Shown here: positions 22,418 through 59,259 of the stretch, one piece after another | Numbering within the stretch: position 1 is the first letter of the stretch | Layout of the letters: every line of letters begins with the position of its first letter | Source: Arthrobacter alpinus | Lineage (GTDB): Bacteria > Actinomycetota > Actinomycetes > Actinomycetales > Micrococcaceae | Length of the DNA stretch: 64,000 bases | NCBI RefSeq assembly: GCF_001445575.1 | Contig: NZ_CP013200.1 | Location: 1,426,001 to 1,490,000, forward strand | Direction: 5' to 3' | Made by a program: the position numbers and the translations under genes | The notes under the pieces: generated by a model | Told to the model about the DNA's origin: nothing | Database searches by the model: none | The model's input: only the letters and a program-made list of their open reading frames with translations

Positions 22418-22642
22418 GAGCCGGTATTTCCTCGGCTGGGCCCACAGACGCGAGGGTCCCGCGGCGAGCTTGCGAGCCGTGGGAGCGTCTGGGGCCTATC
22501 CGGCCCGTCGGCCGCGGGCGGCCTTTGGGGCCTATCCGGCCCGTCGGCCGCGGGCGGCCTTTGGGGCCTATCCGGCCCGTCGGCCGCGGGCGGCCTTTGG
22601 GGCCTCCTTTACGTCGCCTACGAAAACACCGGCTCTGTCGCC
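22411..22642 (+). repeat. Composite repeat element with terminal inverted repeats in the gcvT-gcvH gap
   Basis: The outer ends form a perfect 15-bp inverted repeat (GGCGACAGAGCCGGT at 22411-22425; ACCGGCTCTGTCGCC at 22628-22642). Inside are a copy of the 53-bp module (22438-22488, shared with 11201-11253 and 51791-51841), then three 36-bp tandem units. The last part, 33 bp at 22602-22634, is identical to 58240-58272 inside hemD. No open reading frame inside is protein-like. It resembles a MITE or palindromic intergenic repeat with no transposase of its own. Confidence 0.75.
22491..22598 (+). repeat. Three perfect 36-bp tandem units
   Basis: Each unit begins GGGGCCTATCCGGCCCGTCG and ends GGCGGCCTTT. 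Units are at 22491-22526, 22527-22562 and 22563-22598 with no differences. A single diverged unit occurs in hemD at about 58209-58236. Confidence 0.93.
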
Positions 22643-57163: not shown

Positions 57164-58159
57164 ATGGCTGAAACAATGGCCAGTGTGAAAATTGGAACCC
57201 GCGGAAGCAAATTGGCTCTGAGTCAGACTCAGCAAGTCACCGGTCAGCTCAGTGCCATCGGCGGGTTTGTTGCCGAGATCATCCCTGTTAAGACCGACGG
57301 AGACGTCCTTACCGGCCCGTTGTCGCAAATGGGTGGCACCGGTGTCTTCGCCGCCGCTCTGCGAGACACGCTCCTTAACGGTGGGGTCGACGTGGCCGTG
57401 CACTCGCTTAAGGATTTGCCCACGGCGGCAGTGCCGGGACTGACGCTCGGTGCCATTCCTGTGCGTGCCGACGCCCGGGACGCCCTTTGCTCTCGCGATG
57501 GACTCAAGCTTGCCGAGCTGCCTGTTGGTGCAACGGTTGGCACGGGTTCCCCGCGCCGAGCCGCTCAGCTTCTGGCGGCCCGTCCGGATCTGGTCATCGT
57601 GGACATCCGCGGCAACGTGGATACCCGCCTGGCCCGGGTCCCCGGCTTGCCCGGCAACCCCGACGTCGAATGGGTAGATGGCAAGGTGGGTGACTTGGAC
57701 GCTGTGGTGCTTGCAGCTTCGGGTCTGGGGCGGATCGGCCGGCTCGACACCGTCACCGAATTCCTCGAATCCGACGTCATGTTGCCGGCTCCCGGACAAG
57801 GCGCGCTCGCGCTGGAATGCCGCACCGCCGACGCCGATCTGACGGGTGTCTTGGGACAGTCGCTCAACGCGGTGGACGATCATGACACGCGTCTGGCCGT
57901 TACCGCCGAACGCGCTCTCCTGGCCCGCCTTGAAGCTGGCTGCAGCGCACCCGTTGGAGCCCTTGCTCACCGCAAGGGCTCCATGCTCTACCTCGAAACT
58001 GTGGTTTGCTCCCTCGACGGCACCCGCTCAATGCGCTTGAAGAAGGCCACCGACGGTCTCACCACCGTCGGTGCCACCATTCTCGGCATTGAACTGGCCG
58101 AAGAACTGCTCGCCGGCGGCGCTGGCGACTTAGCGGATTTGGCCGGCTCCGCGAAATGA
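57164..58159 (+). CDS. hemC: Hydroxymethylbilane synthase
   Basis: 331 residues; polymerises four porphobilinogens. VKIGTRGSKLALSQTQQVTG opens the fold, DVAVHSLKDLPTA is the conserved loop, GTGSPRRAAQLLAARPDL binds substrate, and the dipyrromethane cofactor Cys is in RLEAGCSAPVGALAHRKG at about residue 260. The ATG at 57164 is preferred, with an internal ATG at 57176. It ends with an ATGA overlap with hemD. Confidence 0.96.
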   Translation: MAETMASVKIGTRGSKLALSQTQQVTGQLSAIGGFVAEIIPVKTDGDVLTGPLSQMGGTGVFAAALRDTLLNGGVDVAVHSLKDLPTAAVPGLTLGAIPVRADARDALCSRDGLKLAELPVGATVGTGSPRRAAQLLAARPDLVIVDIRGNVDTRLARVPGLPGNPDVEWVDGKVGDLDAVVLAASGLGRIGRLDTVTEFLESDVMLPAPGQGALALECRTADADLTGVLGQSLNAVDDHDTRLAVTAERALLARLEAGCSAPVGALAHRKGSMLYLETVVCSLDGTRSMRLKKATDGLTTVGATILGIELAEELLAGGAGDLADLAGSAK

Positions 58160-59259
58160 CCGAAAGCGGCGGCGGCAGGAGCAGCGAGGCCGGAATTTTC
58201 TCGGCGACTATCCGGCCCACGGCCGCGGACGGCCTTAGCGCCTCCTTTACGTCGCCTACGAAAACACCGGCTACGCCGGCTGTCGGGTTGCTTTCAGGCC
58301 TGCGCGTGGCCGTGACCCGCAGTGCTGACCGCGCCGGGGCCATGGCCGATGCGCTTGCCGCGGCTGGCGCTGAGCCGGTTTTAGTTCCCGTCATCGATTT
58401 TGAGGTGGGCGAGCAAAAGGTACTCGGCAAATCGCTCCAGCGGCTGGCCGCAGGGGAGTACCGCTGGCTGGTCATCAGCTCCATCACCACGGTGCGGGCG
58501 CTGAAGCAATGGTGCGAGGCGGCTGGAACGTCACTGGAGGCTTTGATTCCGGCGGCAACCTCCGTCGCAACCATCGGACCTACCTCCGTTGCCGTTTTGG
58601 CGGCAGAGGGCATTCATGCGGAGCTGGCACCTGTTGATCAGCAATCGGCCGCGGGCCTTGTTGCGCTGTGGCCCGACTTTGATTCGTCCGACGGCGGATC
58701 CCCTCGAGTCCTCTTGCCGCAATCCAACCTCGCCGAACCCACCCTGGTGGAAGGCATTGCTGCTCGGGGATGGACGCCGGAAGTCGTCACGGCATACCGG
58801 ACCGTCGACTACCCAGCCGATCCGGCTAGTCGGCTGACGGCGACGCTGGCGGGCCGCTCCCCGGAGCGGGGCAGACTCGATTCCCTTCCGTCGCGGGAGC
58901 CAATGGCTTCGGAGCGGGGATGGATTTCAGAGGTCGCCCAGCGACCGAAGAAATCTTACTGCCCGCGAGGAGCCATTGGCTCCCGCGCCTACCCGTTGCT
59001 CACTCCGGCAGAAGCGGCGGGGGAGATTGCCGCAGGGGCGATCAACGCCGTCGTACTTGCCTCAGGAAGTGCTGCGCGCAGAGTGGCCGCCACCATGGCG
59101 CCACTGCCGGCGAACTGCCTGGTCATCGCGATCGGCCAGCCCACTCGGGCCGAGGCCCAGCGCTTGGGCATGGTGGTTGCCGCGACCGCAGAGCACCCCA
59201 CGCCTGAGGGCATCCTGGCCGCACTGGCCCTAGCCCACACTAATTTTCTAACCCAGTAA
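58156..59259 (+). CDS. hemD: Uroporphyrinogen-III synthase with two in-frame repeat insertions
   Basis: 367 residues, about 70-100 longer than usual. The core begins only at about residue 46 (GLRVAVTRSADRAGAMADAL) and contains YRWLVISSITTVRALKQW, ATSVATIGPTSVAVL and AVVLASGSAARRVAATMAPL. The first insertion (residues about 12-39) is the repeat element at 58189-58271. The second (residues about 246-277, SREPMASERGWISEVAQ...) is a 97-bp palindrome at 58891-58987. Both preserve the frame. It overlaps hemC by 4 bp, so the N-terminal extension is likely translated. Confidence 0.92.
   Translation: MTESGGGRSSEAGIFSATIRPTAADGLSASFTSPTKTPATPAVGLLSGLRVAVTRSADRAGAMADALAAAGAEPVLVPVIDFEVGEQKVLGKSLQRLAAGEYRWLVISSITTVRALKQWCEAAGTSLEALIPAATSVATIGPTSVAVLAAEGIHAELAPVDQQSAAGLVALWPDFDSSDGGSPRVLLPQSNLAEPTLVEGIAARGWTPEVVTAYRTVDYPADPASRLTATLAGRSPERGRLDSLPSREPMASERGWISEVAQRPKKSYCPRGAIGSRAYPLLTPAEAAGEIAAGAINAVVLASGSAARRVAATMAPLPANCLVIAIGQPTRAEAQRLGMVVAATAEHPTPEGILAALALAHTNFLTQ
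58189..58271 (+). repeat. Repeat element with inverted ends inside hemD (family B relative)
   Basis: The left end GCCGGAATTTTCTCGGCGAC and right end GTCGCCTACGAAAACACCGG form imperfect terminal inverted repeats. The right 33 bp (58240-58272) are identical to 22602-22634 in the gcvT-gcvH element, and the middle (TATCCGGCCCACGGCCGCGG) corresponds to one of the 36-bp units there. It is read through in frame by hemD. Confidence 0.85.
58891..58987. repeat. 97-bp palindromic element inside hemD
   Basis: Outer arms CGCGGGAGCCAATGGCT (58892-58908) and AGCCATTGGCTCCCGCG (58971-58987) are perfectly complementary over 17 bp. Inner parts also pair (GATTTC with GAAATC; GGTCGC with GCGACC), giving a long hairpin. 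It is open in the hemD frame and adds about 32 codons between LAGRSPE-like sequence and PLLTPAEAAGE. Confidence 0.85.

Follow-up and report, generated by a model that had tools for sequence, protein, structure and literature searches.

A dispersed palindromic repeat with a conserved core and locus-specific arms, carried in frame by hemD of Arthrobacter alpinus

Short palindromic sequences that recur throughout bacterial genomes have been described in several forms. Among the closest to the case treated here are the RPE of Rickettsia, which comprise several families of short palindromes, many of them in frame within the open reading frames (ORFs) of ordinary proteins, as far as the accessible text of the two sources goes (PMC10969869, PMC3733652). 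Two of these families, RPE-4 and RPE-6, have a CGTC tag at one end according to the available part of PMC3733652, where the GTAG and CGTC REPs and the RAYT-mobilised REPINs appear as palindromic, dispersed sequences that lie mostly 3′ of genes in convergent or same-direction arrangement, and in some cases inside ORFs. The same part of that source lists GTAG and CGTC REPs within ORFs of many bacteria, next to the Rickettsia repeats that PMC10969869 also treats, and an earlier reading of the present locus from its sequence (the original prediction), which regarded in-frame palindromic insertions as known mainly from Rickettsia, was mistaken on this point. Inverted copies of adjacent sequence and restoration of stem complementarity are also features of quasipalindrome or template-switch mutation (PMC8794818, in its accessible portion), and inverted repeats are kept in protein-coding genes of Nematomorpha mitochondria (PMC6649704, as far as available).

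The Arthrobacter case concerns hemD, the gene for uroporphyrinogen-III synthase, in a stretch of 64,000 nucleotides of the A. alpinus genome (contig NZ_CP013200.1, positions 1,426,001 to 1,490,000; here called the window). An ORF of 367 aa at 58156–59259 on the plus strand, with a match to the HEM4/HemD family (PF02602, E 3e-38), holds a palindrome in frame. Its arms, at 58892–58908 and 58971–58987, are 17 nt each, 100% complementary and separated by a spacer of 62 nt, and the hairpin at 58881–58997 has a DNA folding energy of −39.7 kcal/mol, as compared to a mean of −20.6 for shuffled sequences (z −7.18; none of 200 shuffles as good). The perfect 17-bp outer arms with further inner pairing, which are far beyond chance for the base composition, and the location in an open hemD frame were both described exactly in the original prediction. 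The insertion does add residues to hemD as claimed, but its extent has to be revised to about 34–37 codons that begin upstream of the proposed 97-bp element, the sequence ERGRLDSLPS ahead of the left arm also being extra. The hemD stretch concerned has 84 codons in the window versus 47–50 in 12 of the 14 core-less genomes of the genus that were measured, the two exceptions being G010 with 58 codons and G007 with 69 and another tandem repeat. G007 (L037) and Arthrobacter sp. HY1533 have identical HemD linkers; the different tandem repeat in both, DKLDHR (GACAAGCTCGACCACCGG), resembles a palindromic repeat found at several gene ends in the genus (L031).

Positions 58910–58970 of the same strand form a 61-nt conserved core with nested stems, conserved internal loops and a variable apical stem-loop. 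It is followed by the right arm, whose flank can be aligned without gaps to that of the sister species G014 (32 of 52 positions identical). Core positions 1–10, CGGAGCGGGG, occur a first time at 58862–58871, which gives a 10-nt direct repeat with 58910–58919, and the hemD sequence before it (58840–58861, coding for approximately ATLAGRS), which is similar in carriers and non-carriers, occupies the place that the left arm has in the other carriers. A stretch at 58860–58894 resembles the left end of a longer form of the repeat, with 80% identity over 35 nt to two long-form copies, a weak match with an E value of 0.1 for each. A separate, unrelated palindromic family, GGCGACTATCCG...GCCGCGGGCGGCC...ACGTCGCC, is present in the N-terminal extension of HemD (58190–58272, plus strand), with three tandem copies at 22496–22634, and is also found in the 5′ region of hemD in G007, G008, G009, G013 and G015 and at other sites.

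A search of the A. alpinus genome with a 171-nt query around the element gave 12 further matches with E values below 1e-9, all of which span the centre (query 57–135 at the widest, 71–131 in most cases) and never both arms. The repeated unit is the 61-nt core, CGGAGCGGGGATGGATTT...AAATCTTACTGCCCGCGAGG. A lack of other genomic copies had been thought to speak against a mobile element; further copies of the centre do exist, whereas the 97-bp unit as such has no second copy in the genome. With the core as query, blastn gave matches in 16 of 98 genomes, all among the 23 of the genus (Arthrobacter in the GTDB sense), and in none of the 75 genomes outside it. A covariance model built from 42 copies gave matches at E ≤0.001 in 21 of the 23 genomes, at 19 places or more in A. 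alpinus and at least 108 in all after merging of opposite-strand double matches, these counts being lower bounds with 150 candidates scored per genome. At least 81 of the 108 places, spread over 18 genomes, score 51.6 bits or higher, and the weakest matches (about 34–45 bits) may be other hairpin families. Collections of plasmids and phages gave no match, and the palindromic repeat has so far not been found outside its genus. The core ends with CGGAG and GCGAGG and has variable flanks. One of its stems shows a compensatory change from GCGGG/CCCGC to GCGAG/CTCGC in four copies, and the apical stem varies while pairing is kept. A long form has a second hairpin (GTGATTTCC...GGAAATC) after CGGAGCGGGGATGG and was seen in L013, L015, L077, L100 and L038 and in hemD of G020.

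The arms are mostly unrelated between loci, yet they pair with each other at each locus. At least 12 of 14 flank positions, in the best of four registers, are paired in 41 of 44 full-length copies, and with the same scoring in 9.7% of 2000 mismatched left/right pairs. When 42 copies were aligned with MAFFT without structure information, all 18 arm pairs had changed on both sides and 91.3% of the arm cells were standard pairs, some of the copies being orthologous and the set not representing 42 independent events. The covariation score of the whole structure was 0.484, against 0.153 for shuffled alignments (0 of 500 as high), a test that is inflated by relatedness, and at most 0.142 for slid partners, which retain relatedness. 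Paired fractions are about 0.8–1.0 up to 17 bp (about 0.8 at 16–17), 0.62 at 18, 0.48 at 19 and about 0.4 further out. The median arm is 17 bp in the 44 copies and 18 bp in 33 further copies outside the alignment, the latter placed by the model and hence biased towards pairing; the extremes among the 77 are seven copies with 25–39 bp and seven with 12 bp or less (minimum 2). Adjoining the core, six bases are mostly GGTTCC or GGCTCC, and farther out the arms are near-random while paired. In hemD of G014 and G021, the arms pair at 12 and 13 of 14 positions, respectively. Judged by these sequences, the 61-nt core is the repeat and the 17-bp arms are a property of the locus. Arms can apparently travel as well, since two of the 14 A. 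alpinus copies compared (L003 and locus C) have an identical arm stretch of 16 nt. The former is part of a nested composite at L003:1400-1600, in which a short-form copy is preceded by CGGAGCGGGGATGGCGTGATC.

The gene context of 82 places was examined with a crude rule based on codon bias, which assigned 44 as convergent, 29 as same-direction, 3 as divergent and 6 as inside a gene. The four hemD copies among them were misread (L033 and L072 as divergent, L080 as convergent, L034 as inside), and removal of L080 leaves 43 convergent places. By this rule, again with L080 removed, 67 of 72 convergent or tandem places are within 60 nt of a gene 3′ end, and most copies examined form the middle of a terminator-like stem directly 3′ of a stop codon; single copies such as L067 end in the kind of T run that intrinsic terminators have. 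The assignments of L224, L227, L230 and L240 as inside look like over-extended gene starts or probable N-terminal extensions. The copies L230 (G019) and L240 (G020) are directly 5′ of a gene that we take to be argB, the ORF of which could extend through the element.

Four orthologous gene ends (loci A–D) are occupied patchily. Many core-less genomes have other, often long, plain hairpins at these loci (170–230 nt read), which by eye have no arms in common with the carriers, and some have no strong hairpin. At locus D 20 of the 23 genomes were read, and the copy of G019 lies a little outside the part covered. At locus B, G000, G020 and G005 have arms in common and those of G008 and G009 have diverged yet are complementary, while the core stays alike. 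Two hairpins at this locus, L116 (G012) and L137 (G017), have a common loop, GCCCGAAGCCGCTCCC, and unlike arms, and may represent another family built in the same way. The hairpins at locus C (L140, L147, L156, L158) are longer than 20 bp, nearly perfect and wholly different between species. A search for SbcD gave matches above the cut-off in all 23 genomes, and loss of SbcCD was dropped as a reason for the persistence of palindromes. For the intergenic copies, no relative was found that has the same flank and lacks the core, so the arms may predate the core at these places.

Within the genus, hemD contains the short core in 4 of 23 genomes (G000, which is the A. alpinus of the window; G014; G019; and G021) and the longer form in G020. 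Comparison of relatives thus agrees with the original prediction in that most lack the insert, but the insertion is not strain-specific. The other 18 genomes include 16 in which hemD was read and is without the core, and G005 and G017, for which absence is based on a split protein match only. As judged by blastn identity around hemD, the nearest relatives without the core are G008 and G009 for G019 (84.8% DNA identity), G018, G010 and G004 for G021, and G007 and G012 for G020; G000 and G014, both of them carriers, are each other's nearest relatives. A genus tree from two proteins was not used because it put G008 and G009 on an artefactual long branch. The cores of G000 and G014 differ at one position. 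That of G019 has 2 differences to intergenic copies versus 5–7 to other hemD cores, and that of G021, with 3 differences to the nearest intergenic copy and 4 to the G000 hemD core, does not discriminate. Since the core of G019 is nearer to intergenic copies and the nearest relatives of G019, G021 and G020 are without it, the comparison favours several separate arrivals at one site in hemD, with repeated loss or exchange between species as a possible alternative.

The left arm in G014, G019, G020 and G021 is located at the codons for approximately TLxxRSP, as these occur in core-less species, and an inverted copy of it forms the right arm. The clearest case is G019 against G008/G009, between which there is no difference in the 20 nt on the left side of the event, and the core and the inverted arm constitute a single 87-nt indel flanked by GGCCCGGTC on the left and GGGCCGGGC on the right; the right arm is not present in hemD of G008 and G009. 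Because a 9-nt imperfect direct repeat (7/9) is found at the edges of the indel, its left edge is ambiguous and MAFFT placed most of the left arm within it. A new inverted copy, as compared to the ancestor, fits the hemD sequences of G019 and G008/G009, but the indel could also be a deletion in the ancestor of G008 and G009. Inspection of the other hemD carriers by eye showed no clear target-site duplication. The copy of the window probably has a longer history. Its left arm is new as compared to G014: it repeats the right arm in inverted form without a mismatch and is preceded by another CGGAGCGGGG, and this one sequence suggests that it may have come from a second template-switch event.

A second in-frame copy, one of the places assigned as inside a gene, occurs in mazG of G019 (PF03819, L228:1188-1281), and the corresponding site in mazG of G008 (L261) retains one half of the core. 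Some apparently empty sites are thus old filled sites, and palindromes are also half-deleted. An argument on polarity from mazG, that the host arm always lies beside the CGGAG end, was dropped because of the half element in G008.

At the protein level, the insert is in the most length-variable stretch of an alignment of 22 HemD proteins. An AlphaFold2 model obtained from this alignment for 323 residues, with the N-terminal extension left out, has a mean pLDDT of 86.2, while residues 191–232, which contain the insert, have pLDDT values below 50 and no secondary structure and are flanked by a strand (163–174) and a helix (240–248). Together with the length variability, this makes it probable that the insert is a floppy, disordered loop that is tolerated by HemD. 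Its position presumably adjoins the linker between the two HemD domains. A sequence search of the PDB gave no match at E 1e-3, and one contig scan gave only 2 HemD relatives.

Set beside the described systems, the Arthrobacter repeat has in common with the RPE that it is dispersed and that copies occur in frame, in hemD of 5 of the 23 genomes and in mazG of G019, but the copies examined are mostly intergenic, with conservation limited to the centre and with arms that for the most part are peculiar to one locus. In the alignment, neither a CGTC tag nor a conserved GTAG is found at the core ends. REPs are 20–40 bp long and possess family stems and a tag, whereas here the outer stem varies with the locus. 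The Y1 transposase family PF01797 has no member in A. alpinus and is found in 2 of the 23 genomes, and a RAYT/Y1 enzyme is unlikely to be the present mover. Unlike a MITE, which has terminal inverted repeats common to its copies, the repeat has arms that differ by locus and vary on both sides, the 16-nt stretch mentioned above being the exception. Intrinsic terminators likewise have a strong stem after a stop codon (the hemD and mazG copies excepted), but no 61-nt conserved structured centre with copies inside ORFs. Template-switch mutation is described as local in the available text of PMC8794818, unlike a dispersed conserved core with arms of near-constant length, and the accessible part of PMC6649704 describes no dispersed family with a common core for Nematomorpha. 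A row for Arthrobacter livingstonensis in a table of PMC12306157 has the figure 5,512 among palindrome counts, and the available text describes no family like this one. Literature on palindromes in Arthrobacter or Micrococcaceae and on in-frame palindromic elements, searched mostly outside the subscription journals, did not point to the element. The combination of a conserved core and locus-made arms of near-constant length looks new, whereas in-frame palindromic repeats were already known beyond Rickettsia.

We consider it about an even chance (probability roughly 0.5) that this is a REP/RPE-like repeat whose arms arise, and stay complementary, through template switching during replication, a mechanism that we infer from the comparisons above. 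Template switching has been reported to create and fix hairpins, to make inverted copies and to repair stems (PMC8794818, as far as its accessible text goes). A nascent strand ending in approximately GGTTCC would switch, by means of a short homology, to a core copy at another place; the polymerase would copy the core, and the nascent strand would fold back on the new hairpin, be extended by some 17 nt with its own upstream sequence as template and then return to its original template. Later switches may keep drifting arms matched or restore an arm by copying its partner, which is the probable course of events in the hemD copy of the window. At gene ends, the outcome would be a terminator-like stem that is made or kept, and in hemD an added disordered loop, which can be tolerated because no stop codon closes any of the three forward frames of the core. 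Such a scheme needs no dedicated enzyme. It would explain the host-like arms, their locus specificity and the GGTTCC beside the core, which would serve as priming homology, as well as compensatory change in a coding gene, where selection for termination is not expected. The near-constant 17 bp is not accounted for by the scheme itself, and the conservation of arms among some orthologous loci, as at locus B, would also be expected from terminator selection. The 16-nt arm stretch common to two A. alpinus copies, the half element in mazG of G008, the imperfect pairing of the hemD arms in G014 and G021 and the failure to find an intergenic pair of filled and empty sites with equal flanks likewise speak against it.

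The placement of the repeat may be explained otherwise by a conventional non-autonomous MITE- or REP-like element that is moved by an enzyme in trans and targets the loops of existing hairpins, chiefly terminators, so that the arms would be the old terminator stem. The 43 of 82 places that are convergent, the proximity of 67 of 72 convergent or tandem places to a gene 3′ end, the T run of L067 and the plain hairpins that many non-carriers have at the same spots of loci A–D are as expected from such targeting. Those plain hairpins, however, lack the arms of the carriers as judged by eye, and the hemD sites of non-carriers that were read have no comparable hairpin, yet the arms in hemD match. 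With the right arm missing in G008 and G009, a near-constant arm length and no clear target-site duplication, we regard a conventional mobile repeat as rather unlikely.

A conserved structured RNA or DNA-binding motif in terminators, selected for what it does at gene ends, for instance bidirectional termination or protein binding, would account for copies downstream of stop codons, for the compensatory changes in the core and apical stems, and for a core that stays alike at locus B while the arms diverge with compensation. The copies in hemD and mazG would then be stray captures. They occur, however, in hemD of five species and in mazG of one, where a terminator would do harm, orthologous sites are occupied patchily, and Rfam gave no family above the gathering score in 58700–59200 of the window, with two matches below the threshold; such a motif is an unlikely explanation. 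The probability of a chance palindrome or an assembly error is negligible in view of the folding score (z −7.18) and of the fact that five species have this core in hemD, and the copies in other genomes refute it already. A bolder form of the preferred template-switching model, put forward as a tentative possibility, would be a transposase-free selfish palindrome, the core of which spreads by template switching primed by microhomology and builds its stem at each landing from some 17 nt of host flank copied in reverse, every insertion being a new hairpin with locus-specific arms. If true, this would amount to an inverted target duplication of near-fixed length, making instant terminators and in-frame protein loops.

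If an insertion makes its arms out of the host flank, short repeats of the palindromic kind could spread with no transposase and give rise to new hairpins. This bears on the question how REP-like repeats for which no enzyme is known, the CGTC REPs among them, move, and on the origin of long perfect terminator stems. In hemD, filled and empty sites of a single gene can be compared across 23 species as a natural experiment outside selection for termination, and the gene provides an actinobacterial case of palindromic repeats that add residues to an enzyme of heme synthesis.
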